Source: Epidermidibacterium keratini (GTDB taxonomy: Bacteria > Actinomycetota > Actinomycetes > Mycobacteriales > Antricoccaceae). From it: DNA of 64,000 nt. The stretch is from the NCBI RefSeq assembly GCF_009834025.1, contig NZ_CP047156.1, positions 2,666,001 to 2,730,000 of the forward strand. Reading direction: 5' to 3'. The notes beneath the pieces are model-generated. The model ran no database searches, was not told the DNA's origin, and was given only the letters and a program-made list of their open reading frames with translations. The position numbers were made by a program, and so were the translations under genes. Below are positions 31,900 to 47,975 of the stretch, piece by piece; the stretch's first letter is position 1, and each line of letters starts with the position of its first letter.

Positions 31900-33141
31900 C
31901 TACTTCTGGTGCGGGCCTTGGTAGTCCGCGGCCTCGGGAGCCTCGACGAGCCCGTCGCTGACGACGGTGAGCCCGCCGGCAGCCGAGGCGTCGGCCTGCT
32001 CGACATAGACGCTGCGAGCCGCGGGCGCCCCGGGCACCGAGAAGTCGAGGGGCGCGGTGATGCCCTTGGTGTCGACCTGGACTTTGGCTGCGGCCTCGAC
32101 GATCCCGGAGCGGGTGAGGTTGTCGTCGTCGCACGCCTGCTGCAGGATCGCACCGAAGGCGAGCGCTCCGGCGTACCCGAAGTTCACCGCGTCCAGCGGG
32201 GTCTCGGTGTACTTCTGCTGGTAGGCCGAGGCGAGCTCGACGGCGGCGTCGGAGCCGGTGTAGCCGAACGGTGCCTGGCTGGTCACGCGGTAGTAGTGCG
32301 ACAGCTGCTCGGGGGTGAGTGACGAGACTAGAGCGGTGTCCCAGGTCGGCGTACTTCCCAGCAGCGGTACGCCGAGCGCCTGCTCGACATTCTGCGTCGC
32401 GACCGAGCCCATCGCCGGTGGCGATGTCGAGAGGACGATCGCGGTGACACCGTTAGCCTTCATCGCTGCGATGGTCGCGGTCATGTCGGTGTCGGTGGCC
32501 GAGACCGCAACCGACTGCACGTTCAGCTCATGTTCCTCGGCGTACGCCGCCACCCCGAGCGCGGCGTTTTGGCCGTAGTCGGAGTCGACGTAGATATGGC
32601 CGATCGAATCGCCGGGCGCGATCATGCCTTGCTCGAGCATCCAGCTCAGTCCGTTGATCATCTCGATGTCGTACGTCGCACCTGGAATCACCACCTGCGG
32701 TGTATCGAGAAACGTCGATGACAGTGACGATGGCATCGCGACGACGTCGTCGGAGATGACGCGTTCCTTGACGGCCGCGAAGGTCGGCGTACCGAAGATC
32801 TGGACGAAACCCACGACGTCGCCGGCAATCTCGTCGTAGAGCGCGAGCGCTGACTCGGGCTTGTAGCCGTGGTCCTTGGTGATGAGCTCGACCTGCCGAC
32901 CGCAGATGCCGCCAGCGGCGTTCACCTCATCGGCCCACAGCTCGGTGCCCTGCGTCGCCGCCAGTCCTTGGGCTTTGAACGGCGAGCTCAGGTCGGTCAG
33001 CGCGCCGATCGTGATGGTGTCGTCGCTGACCCCGACGTCGGTCTGCGCGCCGGCATCCTGCGACTTCGGCGACGAGCAGCCGGCGAGCACGACGCCGGCA
33101 AGTGCGAGGGGAAGCAGCAGACGAGGAGAGCGAGCGCGCAC
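31900..33141 (-). CDS. LIV-type ABC substrate-binding lipoprotein, array copy 1 (divergent)
   Basis: The 413-residue product is a Peripla_BP_6-type receptor with lipobox LAGVVLAGC (Cys22). It is the most distal gene of the array and one of the two divergent members. It keeps GGICGR, ATYDIEMINGLSWMLEQGMI, the DSDYGQN loop, DTDMTA and the C-terminal YQGPHQK, but the ligand-facing stretches (for example MPSSLSSTFLDTP) differ from copies 2-5, 7 and 8. GTG 33141 is the start. It is separated from copy 2 by 108 bases with no clear hairpin. Confidence 0.92.
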   Translation of the reverse strand: MRARSPRLLLPLALAGVVLAGCSSPKSQDAGAQTDVGVSDDTITIGALTDLSSPFKAQGLAATQGTELWADEVNAAGGICGRQVELITKDHGYKPESALALYDEIAGDVVGFVQIFGTPTFAAVKERVISDDVVAMPSSLSSTFLDTPQVVIPGATYDIEMINGLSWMLEQGMIAPGDSIGHIYVDSDYGQNAALGVAAYAEEHELNVQSVAVSATDTDMTATIAAMKANGVTAIVLSTSPPAMGSVATQNVEQALGVPLLGSTPTWDTALVSSLTPEQLSHYYRVTSQAPFGYTGSDAAVELASAYQQKYTETPLDAVNFGYAGALAFGAILQQACDDDNLTRSGIVEAAAKVQVDTKGITAPLDFSVPGAPAARSVYVEQADASAAGGLTVVSDGLVEAPEAADYQGPHQK

Positions 33142-33249
33142 CAGCGGTCCTTTCGGGCGAGTACGCCGCGGCGGCGGCGCATCGACACCCTAGTTCAGCT
33201 CGCTGCTTCCTAGCCCTCGGCTCGACCTACCTCACACGATTGCGACCGG

Positions 33250-34509
33250 CTACTTCTCGTACGGCGTCTTGTAGTTCTTGGCCGCGTCCGACTCGAAAAG
33301 CTGCTCGGTGATGTTCAGCCCGCCGGGAACGTTCGGATCTGGCTGCACGATAAACGCCTCGCGCGTGGTCGGGGTGCCTTCGGTGGCGAAGTTGAGCTTG
33401 CCGGTGAGCCCGTTGGTCTCAAGAGCATCGACCTGTGACATCGCCTCCATGATGCCGGCGCGCGTGAGATCGCCGTTGTCGCAGGCCTTCTCCAGCAGCT
33501 CCTGCCATGCCAGGCCCCAGACGTAGCCCTGGCTGGTGCCGATGTTGGGTTCCTCCTGGGTCAGCTGCTGCAGCTTACCGAGCAGCTCCTGAGCCGCTGG
33601 CACGTCGGAGCCGATCGGGGCGTACGACGTCACCTGGTAGTAGTTCTCCAGCGCCGCGGTCACACCCGGATCCTCCAGCAGGGTGGGTGCAAAGACCGGG
33701 TTGTTGCCGATCATCGGCACGTTGAGGCCCTGGCCCTGATTTTGCAGCGCGATCGACCCGAGCGCCGCCGGAGGCGTGGTGACCGCGATCGCCTTCACCC
33801 CATCGGACTTCATCTTCGTCACGATCGCAGTCATGTCGGTATCGGTGGAGGCGATCTTCGCCTCGGAGATCGTCATGCCATTTTCCTCGGCGAATGCCTT
33901 GCTCCCGAGCAGTGCATTTTGGCCGTACTCCGAATCGATGTACACGTGTCCGATGGTGTCGCCTTCGGCGATCATGCCCTGTTCCTGCATCCAGGACAGA
34001 CCGTTGATCGTCTCGACGTCGTACGTCTGCCCGATCATCAGCAGCTGCGAGGCATCGAGGTTGACCGAGGCCCAGGCGGCCGGGATGGTCGGCATGTTGT
34101 CGCTGATGATCTTCTGCTTCAGGGCCGCGATGATGTGCGAGCCGCCGATCGAGATCGCGCCGAGCACGTTCGACTTCTCCTGCTCGTAGAGCGGTAGCGC
34201 GTTGTCGACCTTGTAGGCCGAGTCCTGCGAGTCGATCTTGATATCTCGCCCGCAGATGCCGCCGTCGGCGTTCACCTGCTCGACCCAGATGTTGATGCCG
34301 TAGTCGTAGGCGAGGCTGATGACCTTGAAGACGCCCGAGAGGTCGTTGAGAGCCAGGAGCGTAATCGTGTCGTCGGTGACGCCGACATCGGTCTTGACGT
34401 CACCGTCGCCGCCGCCTGCTGACCCGCCATCGGCCTTGGTGGAGCAGCCGGTGAGGGTGAGGGTGAGGGCGCTGGTGGCGGCGATGGTGGCCAGCGTGAG
34501 CTTACGCAT
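33250..34509 (-). CDS. LIV-type ABC substrate-binding lipoprotein, array copy 2
   Basis: The 419-residue lipoprotein (LTLTLTGC, Cys22) is very similar to copy 3 throughout, for example GGICGRDIKI, INGLSWMQEQGMIAEGD, DSEYGQNALLGS and STDTDMTAIVTKMK. The pair looks like the most recent duplication in the array. The mature protein has two conserved cysteines (GICG and EKACDNGD) that could form a disulfide outside the cell. ATG 34509 has GGAGAG upstream. It lies 14 bases behind copy 3, so the two share a transcript. Confidence 0.93.
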   Translation of the reverse strand: MRKLTLATIAATSALTLTLTGCSTKADGGSAGGGDGDVKTDVGVTDDTITLLALNDLSGVFKVISLAYDYGINIWVEQVNADGGICGRDIKIDSQDSAYKVDNALPLYEQEKSNVLGAISIGGSHIIAALKQKIISDNMPTIPAAWASVNLDASQLLMIGQTYDVETINGLSWMQEQGMIAEGDTIGHVYIDSEYGQNALLGSKAFAEENGMTISEAKIASTDTDMTAIVTKMKSDGVKAIAVTTPPAALGSIALQNQGQGLNVPMIGNNPVFAPTLLEDPGVTAALENYYQVTSYAPIGSDVPAAQELLGKLQQLTQEEPNIGTSQGYVWGLAWQELLEKACDNGDLTRAGIMEAMSQVDALETNGLTGKLNFATEGTPTTREAFIVQPDPNVPGGLNITEQLFESDAAKNYKTPYEK

Positions 34510-34523
34510 GTGAGAGCTCTCCG

Positions 34524-35783
34524 TCATTTCTGGTACGGCGCCTTGTAGTTCTTGGCGGAGTCGGACTCGTAAAGCTCCTTGACCACGGTGAGTCCGCCGG
34601 GCACCTCCGGGTCGGCCTGGGTGATGAAGGCCTGTCGGGTCGTTGGCGCGCCGGGCGTCGAGAAGTCCAGCGTTCCGGTGAGATCTTCGGTCGCCAGCGA
34701 GTCGATCGAGTCCTTGGCCTCGAGTACGCCGGCCCGGGTCATATCGCCGTTGTCGCAGGCTTTTTGCAGCACTTCACCCCAGGCCAGGCCCCAGACGTAA
34801 CCCATCACGGTGCCGAGGTTGGGCGCGTCCTGGGTCTTCTCGGTCAGCTTGGTGAGAATCTCCTGGACCTTCGGGTTGTCCGCGCCAAACGGCGCGTACG
34901 ACGTCACCTGGTAGTAGTTGCTCAGCGCCGAGGTGACTGCAGCATCCTCCAGCAAGGTGGGGGAGAAGACCGGGTTGCTGCCGATCATCGGCACGTTCAG
35001 CCCCTGGCTCTGGTTTTGCAGGGCCGCCGACCCGAGCGCGGCCGGCGGTGTCGTGATCGCGATGGCCTTGACGCCGTCCGCCTTCATCTTCGTCACGATC
35101 GCGGTCATGTCGGTGTCGGTCGAGGCGATCTTCGCCTCGGTGACGCTCATCCCGTTTTCGTCGGCGTACGCCTTGCTCCCGACGAGCGCGTTCTGGCCGT
35201 ACTCGGAGTCGACGTAGATGTGCCCGATCTTGTCGCCCTCGCCGATGATGCCTTCCTCCTGGAGGTAGGACAGCCCGTTGAGCATCTCGACGTCGTACGT
35301 CTGCCCGATCATCAAGATCGCGTTGGAGTCCAGGTTGATCGAGGCCCACGACGCGGGCACGGTCAGCATGTTGTCGCTGGTGATCTTCTGCTTGAGCGCG
35401 GCGAGGATGTGCGAGCCGCCGACGGAGATGATCCCGAGCGAGTTCGCCTTCTGCTGGTCATACAGCGGCAGAGCGTTGTCGACCTTGTAGGCGGTGTCCT
35501 GGGAGTTGATCTTGATGTCGCGCTCGCAGATGCCACCGGCTTCGTTGACTTCATCGACCCAGATCCCGATGCCGTACTCGTAGGCGAGGCTGTTGGTCTT
35601 GAACACGCCCGATAGGTCATCGAGGGTGAGCAGGCTGATCTCGGAGTCGGTCACCCCGACATCGGTCTTCAGGCCGTCTGCTCCGCTGCTGCTGCCGCCG
35701 CCACCGCCCTTGGTGGAGCAGCCGGTGAGAGCGAGGGCGATCGCGCTGGTGGCAGCAACCGCCGCCAAAGGGAACTTGCGCAT
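34524..35783 (-). CDS. LIV-type ABC substrate-binding lipoprotein, array copy 3
   Basis: The 419-residue lipoprotein has signal peptide and lipobox ALALTGC (Cys22), then a Gly/Ser linker and VGVTDSEISLLTLDDLSGVFK. It is near-collinear with copy 2 and ends NYKAPYQK. The ATG at 35783 has AGGAG seven bases upstream, and in-frame sequence farther upstream is low-complexity and unlike a signal peptide. A strong hairpin (35845-35871) separates it from copy 4. Confidence 0.93.
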   Translation of the reverse strand: MRKFPLAAVAATSAIALALTGCSTKGGGGGSSSGADGLKTDVGVTDSEISLLTLDDLSGVFKTNSLAYEYGIGIWVDEVNEAGGICERDIKINSQDTAYKVDNALPLYDQQKANSLGIISVGGSHILAALKQKITSDNMLTVPASWASINLDSNAILMIGQTYDVEMLNGLSYLQEEGIIGEGDKIGHIYVDSEYGQNALVGSKAYADENGMSVTEAKIASTDTDMTAIVTKMKADGVKAIAITTPPAALGSAALQNQSQGLNVPMIGSNPVFSPTLLEDAAVTSALSNYYQVTSYAPFGADNPKVQEILTKLTEKTQDAPNLGTVMGYVWGLAWGEVLQKACDNGDMTRAGVLEAKDSIDSLATEDLTGTLDFSTPGAPTTRQAFITQADPEVPGGLTVVKELYESDSAKNYKAPYQK

Positions 35784-35844
35784 GGGACATCTCCTGGGGC
35801 GTGGGACGGTGGGGCTTGGTGGGGCGGGGGTTTGTCGACGCGCG

Positions 35845-35871
35845 CCGGCCCGTGCCAGCGGCACGGGCCGG
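35845..35871 (-). terminator. Stem-loop after binding-protein copy 4
   Basis: A perfect 12-bp stem CCGGCCCGTGCC / GGCACGGGCCGG with a 3-base loop, just past the copy 4 stop codon. It has no U-tract. It may be a partial terminator or an mRNA 3'-end stabiliser. Confidence 0.6.
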
Positions 35872-35878
35872 ATGCGCA

Positions 35879-37147
35879 CTACTTCTGGAACGGTGCCTTG
35901 TACTCCTTCGCGAGATCGGACTCGTAGAGCTCGGTGATGTCCTTGGTGCCGCTCACGCCGTTCGGATCGGCCTGCGCGATGTAGATCTGGCGGGTCGAGG
36001 GCGAGCCGATCTTGCTGAAGTCCATGACTCCGGTGAGGCCCTTGGTGTCAACCTCGGTGAGCTTCTCGCGAGCAGCCAGCAGGCCGTCGCGGGTCATGTC
36101 GCCGTCCTCGCAGGCCTGCTCGAGGATCTGCTGCCACGCCATGCCGTAGGCGTAGCCGAGCAGCACCGCATCGAACGGCGGGTCGCTGTACTTGTCCTGG
36201 TACTTCTTGGTCAACTCGGCGATGAACTCGCTCTCGTTGCTCATCGAGGCAACCGGCGTGACCACGTAGTAGTTGTTCAGCGCCTGCACGACCTGGTCGT
36301 TGTCCATCAACGTCGGCGCGAAGGTCGGGTTGCTGCCCAGCAGTGGGATGTCGAACGCCTGCGCTGCGGTCTGGGTGGCGACCGAGGCGGTCTGGCCGGG
36401 CGTGGTGGTCAACAGGATGGCCTTGACGCCGTCGGCCTTCATCTTCGCGACGATGGCCGTCATGTCGTTGTCGGTGCCGGAGACTGCGACCTTGTTGATG
36501 GTCATGCCGTTCTGCTCGGCGTACCACTCCGAGCCGAGTACGCCGTTCTGGCCGTACTCGGAGTCGACGTAGATGTGCCCGAGCTGGTCGCCTTCGGCGA
36601 TCATGCCCTGCTCCTGCATCCACGACAGACCGTTGATCATCTCGACGTCGTAGGTCGAGCCGACCATGACGACCGAGGGCGTGTCGAGGTTGGAGGACGC
36701 CCACGAGGCAGGCACCGCGAGAATCTTGTCGTTGGTGAGCTTCTGCTTGAGTGCGGCGAGGATCGGCGAGCCGAGCAGCTGCACGTAGCCGGCGACATTC
36801 TGCTTCTGCTGGTCATATAGCGGCAGCGCGTTGTCGGGCTTGTAGCCGTTGTCCTGGACGTCGATCTTGATGTCGCGTCCGCAGATGCCGCCATCGGCGT
36901 TGACGTCGTCGGCCCACAGCTGGTTGCCGGCCGTCTGGGCGATCCCGCCGACCTTGAACACGCCGGTCTGGTCGGTTTGGACGCCCAGCGTGATCGTGTC
37001 GTCGGTGACGCCGAAGTCGGTCTTCAGCTCACCGCTGCCGCCTCCACCCCCACCACTGCCGGAGTCGCTGGCCTTCGTCGAACAGCCAGTGAGCACGAGC
37101 GTGGCCGCCGCGGCAGCAGCCACCATCGAGGTCGTGACTTTGCGCAT
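35879..37147 (-). CDS. LIV-type ABC substrate-binding lipoprotein, array copy 4
   Basis: The 422-residue lipoprotein (TLVLTGC, Cys22) has a Ser/Gly linker and the mature core beginning GVTDDTITLGVQTDQTGVFKVGG. Its WSNLDTPSVVMVGSTYDVEMINGLSW and YSDPPFDAVLLGYAYG segments differ from its neighbours, so ligand preference may differ. ATG 37147 has GGAGG upstream. The leader contains the repeat GTGTC/GACAC at 37222-37237. Confidence 0.93.
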   Translation of the reverse strand: MRKVTTSMVAAAAAATLVLTGCSTKASDSGSGGGGGGSGELKTDFGVTDDTITLGVQTDQTGVFKVGGIAQTAGNQLWADDVNADGGICGRDIKIDVQDNGYKPDNALPLYDQQKQNVAGYVQLLGSPILAALKQKLTNDKILAVPASWASSNLDTPSVVMVGSTYDVEMINGLSWMQEQGMIAEGDQLGHIYVDSEYGQNGVLGSEWYAEQNGMTINKVAVSGTDNDMTAIVAKMKADGVKAILLTTTPGQTASVATQTAAQAFDIPLLGSNPTFAPTLMDNDQVVQALNNYYVVTPVASMSNESEFIAELTKKYQDKYSDPPFDAVLLGYAYGMAWQQILEQACEDGDMTRDGLLAAREKLTEVDTKGLTGVMDFSKIGSPSTRQIYIAQADPNGVSGTKDITELYESDLAKEYKAPFQK

Positions 37148-37221
37148 GTAGTCCTCCGAACCGTCGTGTGGCAGGGCGCGCCGCACGTGAACAAATGTGT
37201 CCTGGACCATACCCAACACGC

Positions 37222-37237
37222 GTGTCAAATTCGACAC
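37222..37237. promoter_or_regulatory. Short inverted repeat upstream of copy 4
   Basis: GTGTC, six AT-rich bases (AAATTC), GACAC, 75 bases upstream of the copy 4 start and between it and the copy 5 terminator. It is a candidate regulator site for a promoter internal to the array. Support is limited to symmetry and location. Confidence 0.35.
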
Positions 37238-37274
37238 CGAGCGAGTGCTCGGTCGGCCTTCTTAACCAACTTGA

Positions 37275-37320
37275 AACGTGCCGGTTCGCACCGGGTAGGC
37301 ACCCCGCGAACCGGCACGTT
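37275..37320 (-). terminator. Stem-loop after binding-protein copy 5
   Basis: A perfect 15-bp stem AACGTGCCGGTTCGC / GCGAACCGGCACGTT with a 16-base loop, 16 bases past the copy 5 stop. It is the longest stem in this part of the array and likely ends or attenuates the upstream transcript. Confidence 0.7.
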
Positions 37321-37335
37321 GAGCGGCGGTCAGCG

Positions 37336-38601
37336 TTACTTCTGGTGCGGTGCCTTGTAGGACTTCGCCGCGTCCGAGGCCGCAAGGTCAGAGACGATGC
37401 TCAGTCCGCCGGGCACGTTGGGATCGGGCTTGGTGATGAAGCTTTCACGCGTCGCCGGGGCTCCGGGGTCAGAGAGATCCTGCTCGCCGTTCATGCCGTC
37501 CGTCGAGACCGAGGTGACCTCGGTGCGGGCCTTGAGGATGCCCTCGCGGGTCAGATCGCCGTTGTCGCACGCCTTTTTCAGAACCTCGGTCCACACCAGG
37601 CCTTCGGAGTAGCCGGCGTTCACTGCGTAGTTGGGCTGGTCGGCGCTGAACTTCTTGTCGTACTCGCTCTTGATCTTCTCCGCCAGCGGCGACGGGCCGC
37701 CGAAGGGCATCGTGCCAGAGGAGACATACATGTTCTCCAGCGCCGACACTACCGAGGAGTCGCTGAGCATGTTGGGCGTGAAGCTCGGGTTGCTGCCCAT
37801 CATGGGCACGTTGAGGTTCTGGGTCGTGTTTTGTACGGCGACCGAAGCCGTGGCGGCTGGGGTGGTGGTGAGCGCGATGGCCTTGACGCCCTCTTCCTTG
37901 AACTTCGCGACGATGGCGGTCATGTCGGTGTCGGTGGCCGCGACCGGCGCCTCGACCACGGTCATGCCGTTTTCCTCGGCGAAGTACTTCGAGCCCATCA
38001 GCCCGTTCTGGCCGTACTCGGAGTCGACGTAGATGTGTCCGATCTTGTCGCCCTCAGAGAGCGTGCCCTGCTCCTTCATCCAGGACAGGCCGTTGATCAT
38101 CTCGACGTCGTACGTCGCACCGATCAGCAGCACCGACGGCGAGTCCATGTTCTGCGAGGCCTGCGCTGCCGGGATGGCGAGGACCTTGTCGGCGGTGAGC
38201 TTCTGCTTGAGGGCCGCGAGCACCGGCGATCCGATGAGCTGCAGGTAGCCAAGAATCGAGGTCTTCTGCTGTTCGTAAAGCGGTACGGCGTTGTCGGCCT
38301 TGTAGGCGTTGTCCTGGATGTCGAGCTTGATGTCGCGTCCGCAGACGCCGCCCTCGGCGTTGACGTCCTCAACCCACAGCTCGTTGCCGTGGGTCAGCGC
38401 GAGTCCGATGCTCTTGAAGACTCCGGAGAGGTCGCTCTGCACTCCGAGCAGGATCTCGTTGTCGGACACCCCGATGTCGGTCTTGACGCCGTCCGATCCG
38501 CTGCCGCCTCCCGAGGAGTCCTGGGCCTTGGTGCTGCAGCCAGAGATGGTGATCGCGAGAGCGGTGCCAAGGCAGGCGGTAGTCAGGGTCATCTTGCGCA
38601 T
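37336..38601 (-). CDS. LIV-type ABC substrate-binding lipoprotein, array copy 5
   Basis: The 421-residue lipoprotein has lipobox AITISGC (Cys22). The core starts GVSDNEILLGVQSDLSGVFKSIG, and the protein ends SYKAPHQK. ATG 38601 is placed eight bases after AAAGGA, while ATG 38610 would sit on that site. A 16-bp palindrome (38700-38715) and repeat element B lie upstream, and a GNAT gene separates it from copy 6, so it probably has its own promoter. Confidence 0.93.
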   Translation of the reverse strand: MRKMTLTTACLGTALAITISGCSTKAQDSSGGGSGSDGVKTDIGVSDNEILLGVQSDLSGVFKSIGLALTHGNELWVEDVNAEGGVCGRDIKLDIQDNAYKADNAVPLYEQQKTSILGYLQLIGSPVLAALKQKLTADKVLAIPAAQASQNMDSPSVLLIGATYDVEMINGLSWMKEQGTLSEGDKIGHIYVDSEYGQNGLMGSKYFAEENGMTVVEAPVAATDTDMTAIVAKFKEEGVKAIALTTTPAATASVAVQNTTQNLNVPMMGSNPSFTPNMLSDSSVVSALENMYVSSGTMPFGGPSPLAEKIKSEYDKKFSADQPNYAVNAGYSEGLVWTEVLKKACDNGDLTREGILKARTEVTSVSTDGMNGEQDLSDPGAPATRESFITKPDPNVPGGLSIVSDLAASDAAKSYKAPHQK

Positions 38602-38699
38602 GCGGGACATCCTTTGTGGCAGCGCTCACCCCATGCGAGCGACATTGGAAGGATCATGCCGGGTGCGTGGTCGCGATTCAATAGAATTCGCCGATAAAG

Positions 38700-38715
38700 T
38701 TGACAGTGCTGTCAA
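38700..38715. promoter_or_regulatory. 16-bp perfect palindrome upstream of copy 5
   Basis: TTGACAGTGCTGTCAA is perfectly symmetric and lies about 100 bases upstream of copy 5. Each half also reads as a -35-like TTGACA. It is likely a dimeric regulator site. The regulator is not in the cluster. Confidence 0.5.
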
Positions 38716-38734
38716 TTCAGCGGTGGTGGGTCCC

Positions 38735-38782
38735 TTAGGTGTCCCCAATTGCATGGTCTAACCCGCAATCCGCGACACCTAA
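38735..38782. repeat. Intergenic palindromic repeat, element B
   Basis: The outer inverted repeat is TTAGGTGTC (38735-38743) / GACACCTAA (38774-38782), and the inner arms are ATTGC / GCAAT. The centre contains GCATGGTCTAACCCGCAATC (38751-38770), which recurs exactly at 62689-62708 and 63753-63772. It sits four bases beyond the stop codon of the GNAT gene. Confidence 0.8.
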
Positions 38783-38786
38783 GCCG

Positions 38787-39260
38787 TCAGAGCTCGAACT
38801 TGAACCCCACGTGGCTGTCGACGTACCCGAGCCGCTCGTAGAACCGATGCGCATCAGTACGGCGGGCATCAGAGGTGAGTTGCGCGATCCGAGCGCCGTG
38901 TTGGCGCCCGTACTCGTGTGCCCAGTCGATCATCGCGGCGCCCAGCCCTCCGCCGCGGACCGACGGTGCGACGCGCACAGCCTCGATCTGCAGGCGTGTC
39001 GCTCCTCGACGGGAGAGTCCAGGAAACAGCGTCAACTGCATGGTCGCTACGAGTTGCCCCGACTCATCGTGTACGACGACGAGCAGTTGGTTCGGGTCGG
39101 CGTCGATTGCCTGGAAGGCTTCGGAATACGGCGCAAGATCGGACGATTCGCGCTCGGCGCCGAGGACATCGTCGGACAGGAGCGCCACCAGTTCCGCGAG
39201 GTCGCTTGCGTCCGCGCGGCTCACGGCGTACTCGCGGTCACCGATAACGATCGTCTTCAT
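38787..39260 (-). CDS. GNAT family N-acetyltransferase inserted in the binding-protein array
   Basis: The product is 157 residues. Motif A of the fold is seen in LQIEAVRVAPSVRGGGLGAAMIDWAHEYGRQHGARIAQL, and the end DAHRFYERLGYVDSHVGFKFEL is typical. Substrate unknown. It is the only non-transport gene between copies 1 and 8 and is followed directly by repeat element B, which fits an insertion into an older array. ATG 39260 starts the similarity. Confidence 0.85.
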   Translation of the reverse strand: MKTIVIGDREYAVSRADASDLAELVALLSDDVLGAERESSDLAPYSEAFQAIDADPNQLLVVVHDESGQLVATMQLTLFPGLSRRGATRLQIEAVRVAPSVRGGGLGAAMIDWAHEYGRQHGARIAQLTSDARRTDAHRFYERLGYVDSHVGFKFEL

Positions 39261-39542
39261 TGGCGTCTGCGGGACCGAGAGGTCGCGGCTGGGAACGGCG
39301 CGCCGTCGGCGAGCACCAGTCGCCACTGCTGCAACTCACGATGAACGTGGAAGGCATACATGTTTCGAGCATGCAGCATGAACTGCGAGGACGGTCGACG
39401 AAACGGTCTGACCATCGAGACGATGGTGTGTTTCCCGGCCGACGTGGTCTCGACGGACGACGCTCGCCCTAGCGGGCTCGGGCCTGCTCGACCACCGAGA
39501 TACGTGCTCGACCACCGGGATTTGCGGCGGCGCGTCCCGTGG
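39261..39542. other. Intergenic region between copy 6 and the GNAT gene
   Basis: 282 bases without a supported gene. It holds a 20-base direct tandem repeat, TGCTCGACCACCGAGATACG (39485-39504) followed by TGCTCGACCACCGGGATTTG (39505-39524), close to the copy 6 stop. The promoter of the GNAT gene is probably at its left side. I see no strong hairpin after copy 6. Confidence 0.4.
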
Positions 39543-40778
39543 TTAGGGGAGTTGGTAGTTGTCGGCTTCGTCGGAGGCGAAGGGCTCGGAGGCGAGCACC
39601 AGCTTGCCGGCCGAGTTTGGGTCGGTCCGCACGATCACCGACTCGCGCGAGGGCTCACCCAGGTCGATCGCGACCGACAGCGCTGACGTATCGAGCTTGC
39701 CGACGGACTCGCGGGCCTTCTGCACGCCGGCGCGCGAAAGATCCTTGCTGTCACAGGCTTCTTGCAGGATCTGCTGCCACGCAAGCCCGGCGACGTACCC
39801 GGCGGTCACGCCCGGCCCGGCGTCGTCGCCGTAGGCGTCTGCATAGGCCGATGCCAGGTCCTTGGCGGCCGAGACCGACGCCGAGATGGGCGCGAAGCCC
39901 TGCACGAAGTTGAGCTGGGTGTACGCCGCGGTCGCGGTGACGTCGGCGAGGACGGCCGGCGAAAATGACTCACTGCCTGCCACCAGCGGCACGTCCAGAC
40001 CGAGAGCCTTGTTGGCGATCGCCGCCGACGTGGTTGCGGCGGGGGAGACGCTGAGTACGACGGCCGTCGCGCCCTGCTGCTGCGCGCTCGTCATCGCCGC
40101 CGTCAGGTCGGTATCGCTTGCACCTACCGGGATGTCGATGACCTGCAGGCCGCGCTCTGCGGCGTACGCCGCCACGCCCAGCGCGGCGTTGGTCGCCGAA
40201 GGGGAGTCGTTGCGCACGTGGGCGATGATCGCGCCGTCGGTGAGCTGGTCCTGCTGGGCGAGCCACGCGAGGCCGTTGATGGCCTGCACGTCGTACGTCG
40301 GACCGAGCACCATGACCTCCGGCTGGGCAAGCAGCAACGAGTCGGGCGCATCGGTGACCGCGAGTACGCCGTCGGTCGCCAGCGACGGCGCCAGGGCGGT
40401 CGTGGCGGCATCGCCGCCGAGCTGCAGATATCCCAGCACGCTGGACTTCCCCGACTCGTAGGCCGTCGGAGCGACGGCAGGGTCAGCGGTCGCGTCCTGC
40501 ACGTTGAGCGTCACATCGCGCCCGCAGATCCCGCCGTCTTCGTTGACCGCGGCCGCCCAGAGCTCACCGCCGCGGGTCACCGACGTCGAGTACTCGTTCG
40601 TCGCGTCGGCGAGTACGCCGAGGGTGATCTGATCGCCGCTGACACCGACGTCGGTGGTGACGTCAGGGGCTTGGTTGCTCTCCTTGGGTTTGTCGCTGGC
40701 ACCGGTGGTGCACGCACCGAGCCCCACGGTCACGGCAAGGGCAATCGGAGCGGCGCGGCGAAGTCTGCGTTGATCCAC
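39543..40778 (-). CDS. LIV-type ABC substrate-binding lipoprotein, array copy 6 (divergent)
   Basis: The 411-residue lipoprotein (VTVGLGAC, Cys23) retains GGICGRDVTLNVQDA, INGLAWLAQQDQL, the cysteine in QEACDSKDLSR and the SDTDLTAAM loop. Much else has changed, including the EYGQN loop (here SPSATNA) and the tail, which ends YQLP instead of AP-x-x-K. It is the most diverged receptor of the set and may have a different ligand or be on the way to a new role. GTG 40778 is the start. Confidence 0.9.
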   Translation of the reverse strand: MDQRRLRRAAPIALAVTVGLGACTTGASDKPKESNQAPDVTTDVGVSGDQITLGVLADATNEYSTSVTRGGELWAAAVNEDGGICGRDVTLNVQDATADPAVAPTAYESGKSSVLGYLQLGGDAATTALAPSLATDGVLAVTDAPDSLLLAQPEVMVLGPTYDVQAINGLAWLAQQDQLTDGAIIAHVRNDSPSATNAALGVAAYAAERGLQVIDIPVGASDTDLTAAMTSAQQQGATAVVLSVSPAATTSAAIANKALGLDVPLVAGSESFSPAVLADVTATAAYTQLNFVQGFAPISASVSAAKDLASAYADAYGDDAGPGVTAGYVAGLAWQQILQEACDSKDLSRAGVQKARESVGKLDTSALSVAIDLGEPSRESVIVRTDPNSAGKLVLASEPFASDEADNYQLP

Positions 40779-40803
40779 CCGACCATTCTCCCCGACGACG
40801 CCA

Positions 40804-40833
40804 GCGGGTCCGGGGCATCCACCCCGGACCCGC
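40804..40833 (-). terminator. Stem-loop after binding-protein copy 7
   Basis: A perfect 12-bp stem GCGGGTCCGGGG / CCCCGGACCCGC with a 6-base loop, 20 bases after the copy 7 stop and 26 bases before the copy 6 start. Confidence 0.65.
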
Positions 40834-40852
40834 GTGTTCGGTGCCTTGATCG

Positions 40853-42121
40853 TTACTTCTCGAACGGCGCCTTGTAGTTCTTGGCCTCATCGGAGACGAA
40901 CAGCGGCTCGACGTTCTTCAGCCCACCCGGAATGCTCGCATCGGCCTGCTGGATGAACACCTCGCGCCCGGACGGCGCGCCCTCCTTGGAGAAGTCGAGC
41001 GGACCCATGAGGCCCTGGGTGTCGACCTCGGTGACCTTCTTCTTCGCCGCGAGGATGCCATCGCGAGTCAGGTCGCCATCCGAGCACGCCTGCTCGAGTA
41101 CGGCGCCCCACACCAGGCCCTCGACGTACCCCTGATTGACGCCGAGGTTGGGCTCGTCACTGTACTTCTCGGGGTACTTCTGGGCGATCTCACCGGCAAG
41201 CTTGCTCTCGGTGTCGCCGTACGGCGCGGTGTTGCCGACGATGTAGAGGTTGCTCATCGCCGCGGTCACCGACTGGTCGGCGAGCAGGTTGGGGGCGAAG
41301 ACCGGGCTGCTGCCGAGGATCGGCAGGTTCATCCCCTGCGCGGCGTTCTGCACGACGACCGACCCGGTCGCGGCCGGGGCGAGCGTGATGGCGATGGCTT
41401 TGACGCCGTCGTCCTTCATCTTCGCCATGATCGCGGTCATGTCGGTGTCGGTGCCGGCAACCGGCGCCGACTGCACGGTCATCCCGTTTTCCTTGGCGAA
41501 CGCCTCGGAGCCCAGCAGCCCGTTCTGGCCGTACTCGGAGTCGATGTAGATGTGCCCGATCTTGTCGCCGTCGGCGATCATGCCCTGGTCCTTCATCCAG
41601 GACAGGCCGTTGATCATCTCCACGTCGTACGTCGGGCCGACCATCATCACCTCGGGTGCATCGAGGTTTGTCGATGCCCACGACGACGGGATGGCGACCA
41701 TCTTGTCGTTGATCAGCTTCTGCTTGAGCGCGGCCAGGATCGGCGAGCCGATGAGCTGGACGAGCCCGAGCGAGGTCGTCTTCTGCTGGTCATAAAGCGG
41801 CAGCGCGTTGTCGGGCTTGTAGCCGTTGTCCTGCACGTCGAGCTTGATGTCGCGCCCGCAGATGCCGCCTGCGGCGTTGACGTCCTCGACCCACATCTGG
41901 TTGCCGTTGGTCAACCCGAGTCCCAGCACCTTGAAGACACCCGACGTGTCGGTCTGGACGCCCAGGGTGATCTCGCTGTCGGTCACGCCGACGTCGGTCT
42001 TGACGCCGCCGCTGTCCCCGCTGCCGCTGCCGCCGCTGTTATCGGCCTTGGTCGAGCAGCCGGTGAGCAGCACGCTCACTACCGCGCTGCTGGCCACGAC
42101 TGCTGTCGCTGTTCGCTTCAT
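40853..42121 (-). CDS. LIV-type ABC substrate-binding lipoprotein, array copy 7
   Basis: The 422-residue lipoprotein (VSVLLTGC, Cys22) is closest to copy 8. Both share GVQTD(S/T)SGVFKV, LGLTNGNQMW, the DVNxxGGICGRDIKLDVQDNGYKPDNALP-like block and the tail YKAPFEK. ATG 42121 follows an AAGGAG site. Hairpins bracket the gene on both sides, so its mRNA level may be set independently. Confidence 0.93.
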   Translation of the reverse strand: MKRTATAVVASSAVVSVLLTGCSTKADNSGGSGSGDSGGVKTDVGVTDSEITLGVQTDTSGVFKVLGLGLTNGNQMWVEDVNAAGGICGRDIKLDVQDNGYKPDNALPLYDQQKTTSLGLVQLIGSPILAALKQKLINDKMVAIPSSWASTNLDAPEVMMVGPTYDVEMINGLSWMKDQGMIADGDKIGHIYIDSEYGQNGLLGSEAFAKENGMTVQSAPVAGTDTDMTAIMAKMKDDGVKAIAITLAPAATGSVVVQNAAQGMNLPILGSSPVFAPNLLADQSVTAAMSNLYIVGNTAPYGDTESKLAGEIAQKYPEKYSDEPNLGVNQGYVEGLVWGAVLEQACSDGDLTRDGILAAKKKVTEVDTQGLMGPLDFSKEGAPSGREVFIQQADASIPGGLKNVEPLFVSDEAKNYKAPFEK

Positions 42122-42141
42122 CGTTTCTCCTTAGGGATAGC

Positions 42142-42180
42142 GATGACCCGCTCCGACCGGGGGAGTCGGAGCGGGTCATC
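42142..42180 (-). terminator. Stem-loop after binding-protein copy 8
   Basis: A perfect 16-bp stem GATGACCCGCTCCGAC / GTCGGAGCGGGTCATC with a 7-base loop, between copy 8 and copy 7. It is the strongest hairpin of the array. Confidence 0.7.
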
Positions 42181-42219
42181 GGCGGCGCGGCTTGCGCCGA
42201 TGCGGGTGCTACTGGTGCG

Positions 42220-43494
42220 CTACTTCTCGAACGGTGCCTTGTATTCCTTTGCGGCGTCGGACTCGAAGAAGTCGACGACGACCTTCAGACCGCCCTTGTC
42301 GGCGACCGTCGGGTCGGCCTGCATGATGACTGCCTCCCGGCTCGTCGGAGAGCCCTCCTTCGATAGGTCCAGCGGGCCCATCAGGCCCTGGGTGTCGACC
42401 TCGGTGACCTTGGCCTTGGCCTTCAAGATCCCGTCGCGCGTGAGATCTCCGTCGTCACAGGCCTGCTTGAGGATCTCGCCCCACACCATGCCCGCGACAT
42501 ACCCGGCGAAGACCGCGTGGCTCGGCGGGTCGGTGAACTCCGAGGAGTACTTCTCGGCCAGCTCCTTGCCGAACTCGCTGTCGGCGGTGAACGGCAGGAT
42601 CGAGTTGACCTGGTAGTAGTTCGACAGCGCGGCGGTCACGGCCGGGTCGGCGAGCAGGTTGGGCGCAAACGTCGGGTTGCTGCCGAGGATCGGCACATTC
42701 AAGCCCTGGTTGACGTTTTGCACTGCGATCGACGCGGTCGCCGCCGGCGCGACGGTGATCGCGATGGCCTTGACGCCCTCGTCCTTCATCTTCGCCACGA
42801 TGGCGGTCATGTCGGTGTCGGTGCCGGCCACCGGCGCCTCGACGACGGTCATGCCGTTTTGCTCGGCGTAGTACTTCGAGCCCATCACGCCGTTCTGGCC
42901 GTACTCGGAGTCGATGAAGATGTGTCCGATCTTGTCGCCCTCGCCGATCATGCCCTGCTCCTGCATCCAGGACAGGCCGTTGATGATCTCGACGTCGTAG
43001 GTCTGCCCGATCATCAGCACCTCGGGAGCGTCGAGGTTTTGCGACGCCCAGGAGGCGGTGACCGAGACCATCTTGTCGGCGATGATCTTCTGCTTCAGCG
43101 CCGCGAGGATCGGTGAGCCGAGCAGCTGCAGGTAGCCCAGCTGGGTGGTCTTCTGCTGCTCGTAGATCGGCAGTGCGTTATCGGGCTTGTAGCCGTTGTC
43201 CTGGATGTCGAGCTTGATGTCGCGCCCGCAGATGCCGCCTTCGTTGTTGACATCTTCGGCCCACATCTGGTTGCCGTTGGTCAGCCCGAGCCCGGTGACC
43301 TTGAAGACGCCCGACGAGTCGGTCTGGATGCCGAGGTTGATTTCGCTCTCGGTGACGCCGATGTCGGTCTTGACACCTCCGGCACCCCCTCCGCCGCCAC
43401 CGGAGCCACTGTCGTTAGCCTTGGTGGAACAACCGGTGAGCGTGAGTGCGAGGACTGCAGAGCTCACGACTACTGCAGTCGATACTTTCTTCAT
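42220..43494 (-). CDS. LIV-type ABC substrate-binding lipoprotein, array copy 8
   Basis: The 424-residue lipoprotein (ALTLTGC, Cys22) is the receptor gene nearest the permease genes and therefore the likely original partner of the transporter. It shows the complete conserved set: GGICGRDIKLDIQDNGYKPD, INGLSWMQEQGMIGEGDKIG, DSEYGQNGVMGS, GTDTDMTAIVAKMK and tail EYKAPFEK. ATG 43494 has GGAGG six bases upstream. In-frame sequence farther upstream lacks signal-peptide character. Confidence 0.93.
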   Translation of the reverse strand: MKKVSTAVVVSSAVLALTLTGCSTKANDSGSGGGGGGAGGVKTDIGVTESEINLGIQTDSSGVFKVTGLGLTNGNQMWAEDVNNEGGICGRDIKLDIQDNGYKPDNALPIYEQQKTTQLGYLQLLGSPILAALKQKIIADKMVSVTASWASQNLDAPEVLMIGQTYDVEIINGLSWMQEQGMIGEGDKIGHIFIDSEYGQNGVMGSKYYAEQNGMTVVEAPVAGTDTDMTAIVAKMKDEGVKAIAITVAPAATASIAVQNVNQGLNVPILGSNPTFAPNLLADPAVTAALSNYYQVNSILPFTADSEFGKELAEKYSSEFTDPPSHAVFAGYVAGMVWGEILKQACDDGDLTRDGILKAKAKVTEVDTQGLMGPLDLSKEGSPTSREAVIMQADPTVADKGGLKVVVDFFESDAAKEYKAPFEK

Positions 43495-43630
43495 GTTTCC
43501 TCCGAAGAGACGTTCGGCCCGCGCATGTTGGCCGAATGATGCGCTCTCGAGCAGCACCCGCTGACCCGAGCTGGTTGCGCCACAGTCGCGGCAACGACTG
43601 ATGACGCTGATGCCGGCCACTCGCCGGCTG

Positions 43631-43676
43631 TTGGTGGCCTGGGGGCGTGCCGATAACTCACTCCCCAGGCCACCAA
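43631..43676 (-). terminator. Stem-loop between livM and binding-protein copy 8
   Basis: A perfect 14-bp stem TTGGTGGCCTGGGG / CCCCAGGCCACCAA with an 18-base loop, 11 bases past the livM stop. It separates the permease/ATPase transcript from the receptor genes. Confidence 0.65.
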
Positions 43677-43686
43677 GCCTGTGGTG

Positions 43687-44997
43687 CTACTTCTGGTACG
43701 GCGACGCTTGGCCCTCAGGCTCGTCGTCGGCCGGGTCGACCTCCTTGGCTCCGGGCTGATCACCCTCGCTGCCGACCGGCTTGTTACGTCCGGTGAACAG
43801 GCCGAGGATGCGGTTGCCGATGCCGGCGAACCCGCGCGGCTCGAACATGATGATCAGCACGATCAACGCGCCGTAGATGAACGTGGCGATGACGGTCGGG
43901 CTGAACGCCGTACCGCTGGTGACGGCGCTGCCGCCGCCCTGCATCGCCGCGTTCAGGATCGGCGGCATGCCAAACACGATGACCGCACCGAGTACGGCGC
44001 CCAGCAGCGAGCCCATGCCACCGATAACCACCAGCGCCAGGTAGGAGATGGCGGTGACGAGGCTGAACTTGCCGACCTCGGCCGACTCGTCCGGGGTGAG
44101 CAGCTGCAGCATCCAGACGGTCATGATGCCCGACAGTCCGGCGTACGCCGAGGAGATGATGAACGCCCCGGCCTTCGTGCGAGCGACGTTGATGCCCATG
44201 ACCGTCGCGGCCGCCTCGTTGTCGCGGACCGCGCGCCACGCCCGGCCGATGCGGCCGTTGACCGCGCCTCGGGCCAGGACGTAGGCGATGCCCATCAGCA
44301 GCGCGTACAGCCACCACATGCGCTCGGAGGTCCCGATCGGCACATTCATCACGTACAGCTCCGGGCTGGACTCGACCACGTTGAAGCCGAACAGCGAGAA
44401 GCCGGGGACCGGGCGGCCCGAGGCGTGCCCCGCGATGGACGGGAACGTCTTGGAGACCCAGAACATGATGTAGACCAGCGCCAGCGACGCCAGGCCCAGG
44501 TAGATGCCGCGCAGCCGCGCTGAGATCGGGGAGAACAGTCCGCCGGCGAGCCCGGCGATCGCCACGGCGACGATCAGCGCGAGCAGCGGCGGCCAGCCGA
44601 GTCCGAAGTGGTAGACCTCGGTCTCGGAGCCCGGCGCGTACTGCGTGTCGGCCGCCAGCGTCGTGTAGGCGATGGCGCCGACGAGCATGAACGCCGACTG
44701 TGCCAGCGACAGCAGGCCAGCCTGCCCCAGCAGCATGGTCAGGCCGAAGCCGCCGACCGCGGCCGTCATGATCGTCTGACCGTTGGTGAGGGTCGCGGCG
44801 TCGAGGTACAGCGGCGCCAGGAACATCACGATCGCGTAGATCGCCATGCCGATGACCAGCTTCCACCGACTGAAGAAGGACGGCCGGACGAGCGCCTTGA
44901 CCTTCGGGTCGTCGGAGATGGTCGTCTCGGAGTTGTCGTGCGCGGTCGCGTTCAGGTCGCGTTCCGCGGCGTTCTGTGGTGCTTGGGTGCTAGACAC
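43687..44997 (-). CDS. livM: Branched-chain-type ABC transporter permease LivM
   Basis: The 436-residue permease has about ten hydrophobic segments and the family core RLRGIYLGLASLALVYIMFWVSK and GRAWRAVRDNEAAATVMGINVARTKAGAFIISSAYAGLSG, the ATPase-contacting loop. A hydrophilic C-terminal tail of about 45 residues ends in ASPYQK, echoing the AP-x-x-K ends of the receptors. GTG 44997 overlaps the livH stop by eight bases. It forms the membrane channel with LivH. Confidence 0.93.
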   Translation of the reverse strand: MSSTQAPQNAAERDLNATAHDNSETTISDDPKVKALVRPSFFSRWKLVIGMAIYAIVMFLAPLYLDAATLTNGQTIMTAAVGGFGLTMLLGQAGLLSLAQSAFMLVGAIAYTTLAADTQYAPGSETEVYHFGLGWPPLLALIVAVAIAGLAGGLFSPISARLRGIYLGLASLALVYIMFWVSKTFPSIAGHASGRPVPGFSLFGFNVVESSPELYVMNVPIGTSERMWWLYALLMGIAYVLARGAVNGRIGRAWRAVRDNEAAATVMGINVARTKAGAFIISSAYAGLSGIMTVWMLQLLTPDESAEVGKFSLVTAISYLALVVIGGMGSLLGAVLGAVIVFGMPPILNAAMQGGGSAVTSGTAFSPTVIATFIYGALIVLIIMFEPRGFAGIGNRILGLFTGRNKPVGSEGDQPGAKEVDPADDEPEGQASPYQK

Positions 44998-45871
44998 GTC
45001 GCTGCTCCACCTTTCCGAACAGGCCGGATGGCTTGAAGACCAGCACGACGACCATGATCAGGTAGACCGCCAGCGTGCCGAAGACCTTGTCGACATAGAA
45101 GTCGCCAAAGGAGTTCGTCAGGCCGACGACAAACCCGCCCACGATCGCGCCCTCGGTCGAGGTCAGTCCGCCGATGATCGCCGCCGGGAACGCGGCGAGC
45201 GCGATCGCGTGCGACGTGGCCGAGAGGCCGGATCCGGCGAAGCTGGGCGAGGCGATGAAGAGGATCGCCACACCGGCGAGCGCACCGCCGACCAGCCACG
45301 CCGAGGCGGTGACCCGCCCGCTGCGGATGCCCATCAGTGCTGCTGCTTCCTTGTTCTCGGCCTGGGCGCGCATAGACACACCCCAGTTCGAGTAGTGGAA
45401 GACCAGCATGAAGGCGCCGATCAGGATGAGGGCGGTGATCAGGCTGATCACGTAGATGCCCTGGATGGTGATATCGCCGATCCGGATCGGGTCGACCCGG
45501 ATAAACAGGTTGGGGTTATCGGAGACACCAAGCCGCCGGATGATCTCGGTAAAGAAGATCGTGTCCAGGCCGATGGTCAGAATCGCCAAACTGTCGTGCG
45601 AGGCGAGCTTTGCGTTGTTCAGCAGCAGCCGCTCGATGAGCAGTGCCAGGATCGCCGAGGTGGCGATGCCGATCAGCGCCGCGACGACCCAGGGCAGCCC
45701 CCAGCTATCACGCGCCACAAACACCAGGTAGCCGCCGACGAGCGCGATGGAGCCGTGCGCGAAGTTGACGGTCTCGGTGGCCTTGTAGATGATCACGAAC
45801 CCGAGCGCCAGCAGCGCGTAGACCGCGCCGCGCCCGAGGCCGATGATCACGACCTGCAGAAAGGTACTCAT
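44990..45871 (-). CDS. livH: Branched-chain-type ABC transporter permease LivH
   Basis: The 293-residue permease has about eight helices. It carries GLGRGAVYALLALGFVIIYKATETVNFAHGSIALVGGYL and the cytoplasmic loop MRAQAENKEAAALMGIRSGRVTASAWLVGGALAG typical of LivH. The ATG lies in the stop of livG (ATGA). It works with LivM, LivG and LivF. Confidence 0.94.
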   Translation of the reverse strand: MSTFLQVVIIGLGRGAVYALLALGFVIIYKATETVNFAHGSIALVGGYLVFVARDSWGLPWVVAALIGIATSAILALLIERLLLNNAKLASHDSLAILTIGLDTIFFTEIIRRLGVSDNPNLFIRVDPIRIGDITIQGIYVISLITALILIGAFMLVFHYSNWGVSMRAQAENKEAAALMGIRSGRVTASAWLVGGALAGVAILFIASPSFAGSGLSATSHAIALAAFPAAIIGGLTSTEGAIVGGFVVGLTNSFGDFYVDKVFGTLAVYLIMVVVLVFKPSGLFGKVEQRRV

Positions 45872-46881
45872 CGGGTCTTCTCGCTTTCTGGGTCGACCGG
45901 GCTCGCGCCGGCGCCGGAGGAGACGTCGTCGGCGTCGGCGGTGCCGGTTCCGACGTGCTCGCCGGCGGCGATGTCGCCGGTGCCGGCGGCCGCGTTCTCG
46001 GCCGCGATCTCGGCCTCGATCGCCTCGTCGGTGATCTCGTCTTCCTCTGCTCCGAGGTAGGCGCGAATGACGGCCTCGTCCTGCTGGATCTCCGAGGGGA
46101 CGCCGTCGGCGATACGCTTGCCGAAGTCGAGCACGGTGATGTGGTCGGCAACGCCCATGACCAGGCTCATGTCGTGTTCGACGAGCATGATCGACACGCC
46201 GATCTCATCGCGCACGTCCTTGATGAGCTCGGCGAGGTTGTCGGTCTCGGCCGAGTTCATGCCGGCCGCAGGCTCATCGAGCATCAGCAGCTTTGGCTCG
46301 CACGCGAGTGCCCGGGCGATGTCGACGCGCTTCTGTACGCCGTACGGCAGCAGACCGGCCGGCGTGTGCAAGAACTGCGAGATGCCAAGGAACTCACAGA
46401 TCGCGGCGGCCCGCTCCTTGTGGCGCCGCTCTTCGCGCATCGTCCACGGAAGACGCAACGCAGCCGAGAAGAACCCACCCTTGGTCAGGTGGTAGCGACC
46501 GAGCATGACGTTATCGAGCACCGTCGAGCTGGGGGAGAGGGCGAGGTTCTGGAACGCTCGCCCGACGCCCTGGCTGGCGATGCGGCTAGCCGGCAGCTTC
46601 GTGAGTACGGCGTCGCCGAACGTCACCGACCCGGTGCGGGTGCGGTAGACGCCGGTGATGGCGTTGAAGCAGGTCGACTTGCCGGCGCCGTTAGGCCCGA
46701 TCAGTGCGTGGATGGTGCCCGGCTCGATGGTGAAGCTGACGTGGTTGAGCGCGACAATGCCGCCAAACTGCACGGTGACGTCGTCGACGACGAGGGCCGG
46801 CACGCCGAGCGCCTCAGTGGCGGCTCGGGTGGCCCGGCTGATCGTCGGGTCGACGGTCTCGGTGGAACTGAAATCGCTCAT
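45868..46881 (-). CDS. livG: Branched-chain-type ABC transporter ATPase LivG with acidic tail
   Basis: The 337-residue ATPase has Walker A GPNGAGKSTCF and Walker B LLMLDEPAAGM. The LivG-specific VGRAFQNLALSPSSTVLDNVMLGRY follows the first, and the signature region GVQKRVDIARALACEP is variant. The normal domain ends near residue 275. An extra acidic, Ala/Gly-rich tail of about 60 residues follows, which is not part of the usual LivG. It overlaps livF upstream and livH downstream by four bases each. Confidence 0.93.
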   Translation of the reverse strand: MSDFSSTETVDPTISRATRAATEALGVPALVVDDVTVQFGGIVALNHVSFTIEPGTIHALIGPNGAGKSTCFNAITGVYRTRTGSVTFGDAVLTKLPASRIASQGVGRAFQNLALSPSSTVLDNVMLGRYHLTKGGFFSAALRLPWTMREERRHKERAAAICEFLGISQFLHTPAGLLPYGVQKRVDIARALACEPKLLMLDEPAAGMNSAETDNLAELIKDVRDEIGVSIMLVEHDMSLVMGVADHITVLDFGKRIADGVPSEIQQDEAVIRAYLGAEEDEITDEAIEAEIAAENAAAGTGDIAAGEHVGTGTADADDVSSGAGASPVDPESEKTR

Positions 46882-47684
46882 CCGGCCCACAACCCCAGCT
46901 TGCGGTGACGATTGATCTTCGGTGCGAGCGGATCGTCGGAGGTGTCGGTCGTCCCGCCGCCGTGACCGCCGAGGTACAGCGCCTGCACCTCATCGGACTC
47001 GGCAAGCTCGGCGGCGTTGCCCTCCAGGGCAAGTTCACCGACCTCGAGGACGACCGCGCGGTGCGAGACGCGCAGCGCCATGCTCGCGTTCTGCTCGATC
47101 AGCAAGATCGCGGTTCCGAACTCACTGTTGATCTGCTGCACGATCTGTCCGATGCGCGCGATGAGCTGTGGGGCGAGACCGAGGGACGGCTCGTCCATTA
47201 ACAGCAGCTTGGGCTCGCACATCATGGCGCGCCCGATCGCGAGCATCTGCTGCTCGCCACCGGACAACAGCCCGGCGGGCTGCTTGCTGCGCTCTTCGAG
47301 CCGCGGGAACAGCTCGTAGATGCGATCGCGGGCGACCGAGCGCCGCTTCGGATCGGCGGTCAGACCGCCGGCGCGTAGGTTCTCATCGACGCTCATGCGC
47401 GCGAAGACCTGGCGGCCTTCGGGCACCTGGATGACCTGCTGCTCGACGATGCGAGCGGGATCCAGCTTGTCGATGCGCTTGCCATCGAAGCTGATCTGCC
47501 CCGATGTAAGGGCGCCGCGATGCAGCTTCAACGTCGCAGAGATGGCGCGTAGCAAGGTGGTCTTGCCCGCTCCGTTGCCTCCGAGTACGGAGACAACCTC
47601 TCCTTCTGGGACGTCGAAGGACACATTGCGCAGCGCATCGACAGAGCGTCCGTATCTGACGGAAACGTCCTTGATGCTTAGCAC
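46878..47684 (-). CDS. livF: Branched-chain-type ABC transporter ATPase LivF
   Basis: The 268-residue ATPase has Walker A GGNGAGKTTLL, signature LLSGGEQQMLAIGRAM and Walker B LLLMDEPSLGLAP, as in LivF. It is the first gene of the livF-G-H-M operon. GTG 47684 has GGAGGAGG upstream. The last 25 or so residues are charged and not conserved. Confidence 0.93.
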   Translation of the reverse strand: MLSIKDVSVRYGRSVDALRNVSFDVPEGEVVSVLGGNGAGKTTLLRAISATLKLHRGALTSGQISFDGKRIDKLDPARIVEQQVIQVPEGRQVFARMSVDENLRAGGLTADPKRRSVARDRIYELFPRLEERSKQPAGLLSGGEQQMLAIGRAMMCEPKLLLMDEPSLGLAPQLIARIGQIVQQINSEFGTAILLIEQNASMALRVSHRAVVLEVGELALEGNAAELAESDEVQALYLGGHGGGTTDTSDDPLAPKINRHRKLGLWAG

Positions 47685-47975
47685 TGGCCTCCTCCAAAAC
47701 GCGCTCGGCCGATGTCGGTCGCGCGCGTGTGGACTTGTCGGTTGGGTGTGGCGCCGATTACGACGGGGCTCACGGCGCTCAGCGATAGTGGCGTATGCCT
47801 CACCGCGTCGGAAAGGTATCACCCGACGTTCATGTCAAATTTCACCGTTCCGATACCTGATGAGCCGACCCACTTCAACGGCGTGCGCATTGCGCACACC
47901 AACTACCTGAGACACCGTGTTTGCCGCGTTGACGCCCGCCGTACTCGCCGCGGGTCGCGGCCTAGACTGGCCGGC
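47685..47975. other. Divergent promoter region livF / glpD
   Basis: 291 bases between divergent genes. It includes a less GC-rich core near 47815-47870 (around ATGTCAAATTTCACCG) where promoters probably lie. No convincing operator palindrome or terminator was found. Short reading frames here lack family similarity. Confidence 0.4.

Follow-up and report, generated by a model that had tools for sequence, protein, structure and literature searches.

A single LIV-type ABC importer core in Epidermidibacterium keratini probably serves a lineage-specific, diversified repertoire of receptors that bind hydrophobic carboxylates and are each expressed as a unit of their own, delimited by a hairpin. The core and most of the receptors are encoded in the window, the 64,000-nucleotide stretch of DNA that was analysed. 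The original prediction of a receptor repertoire sharing one core is supported by a single LivM orthologue against 10–20 receptor matches in each of five genomes of one family, by the absence of permeases beside dispersed receptors and by diverged paralogue pockets, but its views of the size of the set, the ligands and the operon required revision.

The LivFGHM core and its receptors

The core genes encode a pair of LivH/LivM-type permeases together with a pair of LivG/LivF-type ATPases, which makes them a LIV/HAAT-type ABC importer gene set; the core subunits score below the E. coli equivalog cut-offs. As originally noted, eight intact receptors with a lipobox cysteine lie behind this one livFGHM set, all on the minus strand at window positions 31900–43494. 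The eight copies are indeed in line, but the run is not uninterrupted, since a GNAT acetyltransferase gene splits S3 from S4. The genes are as follows (window coordinates):

46878–47684, minus strand: livF, ATPase subunit (start set by comparison with relatives; the open reading frame extends to 47822)
45868–46890, minus strand: livG, ATPase subunit
44990–45871, minus strand: livH, permease
43687–44997, minus strand: livM, permease
42220–43494, minus strand: receptor S1, 424 aa counted from ATG
40853–42121, minus strand: receptor S2, 71% identical to its neighbour S1
39543–40778, minus strand: receptor S3, the most diverged copy
38787–39326, minus strand: GNAT acetyltransferase gene, within the array between S3 and S4
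37336–38610, minus strand: receptor S4
35879–37147, minus strand: receptor S5
34524–35783, minus strand: receptor S6
33250–34527, minus strand: receptor S7, 71% identical to its neighbour S6
31900–33141, minus strand: receptor S8, diverged (37–49% identity)

An FAD monooxygenase gene of the 3-(3-hydroxyphenyl)propionate hydroxylase type is convergent to S8 (30308–31897), and a glycerol-3-phosphate dehydrogenase-like gene, similar to one adjoining the core in a related genome (G001), is divergent from livF (47712–49703). Words of the form CGGTGGTCGAGCA recur between S3 and the GNAT gene (39480–39540).

All eight array receptors pass the Peripla_BP_6 Pfam cut-off of 31.7 bits (scores 105–163 bits) and carry a lipobox, and two cysteines (C90 and C347 in S1 numbering) are invariant in all 12 family members of the genome. 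The motifs said to be shared by all copies are present in related form, but not strictly: S4 has GGVCGR, S6 has GGICER and LNGLSY, S2 has ACS and S5 has ACE. Pairwise identity within the array is 34–71%, with S3 (34–39%) and S8 (37–49%) both far diverged. The predicted fold of S1 is confident (pLDDT 92.7), and that of S3 is intact and confident (pLDDT 90.9) despite several changed pocket positions. Pairwise dN/dS values of 0.14–0.58, which are rough given codon bias in a GC-rich genome, point to purifying selection.

The repertoire extends beyond the array. Fourteen Peripla_BP_6 proteins are encoded in the whole genome (4,018,808 bp): the eight array receptors, four dispersed relatives (genome positions 79.8k, 1791.6k, 1825.9k and 2134.7k) that share 43–60% identity with every array member except S3, and two proteins at 310k and 640k with ∼20% identity that belong to separate systems. 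BPD_transp_2 permeases adjoin the array and the 310k and 640k receptors; none was found beside any dispersed receptor, the nearest seen being 9–14 kb off. The set predicted as eight thus holds for the array, while the whole repertoire numbers 12 receptors per single LivFGHM core. One dispersed receptor, X80k, immediately precedes genes that, read by eye, resemble an osmoprotectant-type ABC set (L019:7682–11891).

Hairpins and transcription units

The array is unlikely to be a single operon. A hairpin follows livM, and across the expanded genomes most receptors are followed by one of their own. The predicted hairpins, and a palindrome discussed below, are:

43630–43676, minus strand: strong hairpin directly 3′ of livM (z −5.6)
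42141–42181, minus strand: 17-bp perfect hairpin after S1 (z −6.0)
40804–40833, minus strand: hairpin after S2 (z −3.4)
37275–37320, minus strand: hairpin after S4 (z −4.4)
35843–35872, minus strand: hairpin after S5 (z −2.5)
38700–38715, unstranded: palindrome TTGACAGCACTGTCAA, upstream of S4, the sole exact TTGACAN4TGTCAA in this genome

Folding revealed no such hairpin downstream of S3, S7 or S8, and the S6–S7 gap is too short for one. Each of the five expanded genomes has such a strong hairpin after livM (z between −4.3 and −8.6), and 18 of the 28 receptors tested in them have a hairpin with z ≤ −2.5. At 27 single-receptor loci, the livM-receptor junction never reached z < −2.1 (with simpler shuffles); the gap there is ≤5 bp in 23 loci, with an exact 4 bp overlap in 18. 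A scan of the array for consensus promoters and terminators gave no clear excess (3 vs 1.5 and 8 vs 7.6), and we therefore infer termination from folding alone. Because most hairpins in the window lack a T run, we leave their role broad: they may terminate, attenuate or stabilise transcripts. The array thus appears, from its predicted folding, to comprise separate units rather than one operon.

The exact palindrome TTGACAN4TGTCAA occurs once each in three of the five expanded genomes (G000, G002 and G004), always upstream of a family receptor, and is absent from G001 and G003. It was first spotted ahead of S4 and ahead of one receptor gene in G004, leaving only the G002 site as independent. 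A looser palindrome, allowing two mismatches, has 44–125 matches per genome and is uninformative on single sites.

Receptor expansion in related genomes

The five expanded genomes (G000–G004) are from one family and comprise E. keratini and four others. Each encodes exactly one LivM orthologue, alongside 12 receptor matches in E. keratini and 20, 11, 10 and 11 in the others, some broken copies included; the arrays hold 8, 9, 5, 1 and 6 receptors. The claim that no copy is broken holds for the eight receptors of the E. keratini array, but not for relatives, where some copies have decayed (e.g., an internal TAG at G002 C1:120984, a split gene at G002 C2:600870–602107 and a fragment at G001 C1:49748). 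Related actinobacteria outside the family have one receptor per core. In a class-wide sample the receptor family is present in 42 of 297 genomes, and the highest count outside the family is three receptors, with up to six candidates scored per genome.

In all five family genomes the locus is flanked by an XPB-like helicase on one side and, where the sequence reaches, by GroEL on the other, as recognised by eye. Pseudonocardia oroxyli has the same XPB-like helicase/GroEL setting, likewise recognised by eye, with a single receptor. Our comparison shows the starting point of the expansion to be a one-core, one-receptor arrangement. In three single-receptor systems (L040, L047 and L054), a pair of genes upstream of the core looks, by eye, like a sensor gene with a response-regulator gene.

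Phylogenetic analysis separates the 26 single-receptor rows from all receptors of the expanded genomes, with a branch support of only 69/79. The tree thus does not point to orthology with receptors that have their own permeases, the outcome named at the outset as counting against a shared repertoire. Nineteen receptors of G001 form one clade (80/98), and those of G000 and G002–G004, S8 left out, form a second (98/92); S3 and S8 are on long branches and their placement is uncertain. Given these separate clades, the receptor expansion most likely occurred at least twice, independently. Receptor groups span genera, and their order along the array is similar in G000, G002 and G004. S5, for example, clusters with receptors from the G002 and G004 arrays. 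The dispersed E. keratini receptor X2135k likewise groups with array receptors of these two genomes (95/87), indicating that receptors relocate between the array and other sites. In the tree, copies from the array are intermingled with dispersed ones.

Binding pockets, ligands and alternative explanations

To locate the pocket, the receptors were aligned with E. coli LivJ and LivK and the presumed LivJ contact residues were transferred; of these, Glu226 and Thr102 presumably bind the alpha-amino-acid moiety. LivJ Ser79 is retained in the receptors. The Glu226 column is N, S, G or T in the 12 receptors, mostly Asn or Ser, and the Thr102 column is mostly Ala; the receptors thus mostly lack, in this alignment, the LivJ-like residues presumed to bind branched-chain amino acids. 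Pocket positions are near-constant across single-receptor systems. At the position equivalent to S1-149, for example, each of the 25 single-receptor systems has Trp, as does the solved structure 4n03, compared with 34 of 62 expanded receptors. At 50–55% overall identity, pocket identity is 0.84 between single-receptor orthologues versus 0.46 between within-genome paralogues, in pairs that are not independent; over nine pocket positions, partly picked after viewing the alignment, a Mann-Whitney test gave p 0.018. Pocket signatures are kept within most orthologue groups. These patterns are evidence, though not proof, that paralogue pockets changed specificity.

The solved structure closest to the receptors is 4n03 from Thermomonospora curvata (37% identity, TM 0.94 by target length, with similarity in sequence and fold over the full length), whose label as a fatty acid ABC transporter substrate-binding protein is its deposited title; we found no paper on it. 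At 20 of 31 dispersed loci, a homologue of CoA-ligase, enoyl-CoA hydratase, SDR or thiolase is no more than two genes away, versus five of 20 controls (p 0.006), the controls being random 10-kb regions of the same genomes, five of them moved by hand away from receptor loci. Six of the ten SDR neighbours stem from one orthologous locus, and neither acyl-CoA dehydrogenase nor thiolase was significantly enriched beside dispersed receptors (31 loci, 20 controls). LIV-type receptors of Rhodopseudomonas palustris bound hydrophobic acids, not Leu, Ile or Val (PMC3223731). The replacement of Glu226, the title of 4n03 and the acyl-CoA-type neighbours make hydrophobic carboxylates, most likely fatty-acid-like ones, more probable ligands than branched-chain amino acids.

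A conventional importer of branched-chain amino acids whose receptors are redundant would fit the fold, the Pfam family and the LivFGHM core, yet we regard it as very unlikely given the replaced Glu226 and Thr102 columns, NCBIfam LIV receptor scores far below cut-off, the title of the nearest structure and the R. palustris precedent. Another alternative is dosage: all copies would share one ligand, and their amplification would serve only to raise receptor abundance. The adjacent pairs S1/S2 and S6/S7 have the look of such copies, and few pocket positions distinguish S6 from S7; paralogue pockets are, however, far more variable than those of single-receptor orthologues at equal identity and their signatures persist in most orthologue groups, which makes dosage improbable as an account of the set.

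A different objection is that the shared set is the array alone, with the dispersed receptors serving other permeases or acting as sensors. Their distance from the core, the ABC-like genes seen by eye next to X80k, and the report that expanded tripartite tricarboxylate transporter receptors occur near other transporters and regulators (PMC5994714) speak for it. We nonetheless think it unlikely: the tree mixes the two kinds of copy, X2135k clusters with receptors from the arrays of relatives, and array and dispersed receptors have one exact palindrome in common.

Under our preferred reading of a shared core, LivFGHM would serve 12 lipoprotein receptors, eight in the array and four dispersed, each capturing a different hydrophobic carboxylate (a fatty-acid-like or related acid) and passing it to the common LivHM pore; the imported acids would then be activated by CoA ligases. 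Each receptor would be expressed as its own unit bounded by a hairpin, and receptor choice would consequently be uncoupled from core expression. We conjecture, more tentatively, that the receptors might form a modular system of individually transcribed cassettes, with one palindromic operator common to some of them. Such cassettes would have diversified to different acyl or other hydrophobic acids, would compete for a single LIV-type pore and would have arisen on two occasions at one ancestral locus.

Importer sharing among receptors is already known. E. coli LivJ and LivK likewise supply one LIV-type core (LivHMGF), but they are two receptors for amino acids with Glu226 present, as against 12 with Glu226 replaced. 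The protein in 4n03 has the same residue as the receptors at many aligned pocket positions, but is a single deposited structure. Borrelia OppA1-5 similarly supply one ABC system, but are five peptide receptors with two permease pairs (PMC11732028). Tripartite tricarboxylate transporters show lineage-specific receptor expansion far exceeding permeases (e.g., Bordetella Bug, and 434 genes in Rhodoplanes; PMC5994714), but belong to another protein family and transporter class with a non-ABC core. The pattern of many receptors with one core, recurring in relatives, is that expected of a core-sharing receptor expansion; we found no report of a LIV-type receptor expansion of such size.

The family provides a natural experiment on the use of multiple receptors by a single ABC core, with orthologous receptor groups across genera and relatives that are still single-receptor as comparison material, and with a visible shift from overlapping livM and receptor genes to hairpin-separated ones. 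Pocket signatures could allow ligand preference to be read, and the repertoire might explain the uptake of lipid-derived acids by this skin isolate.
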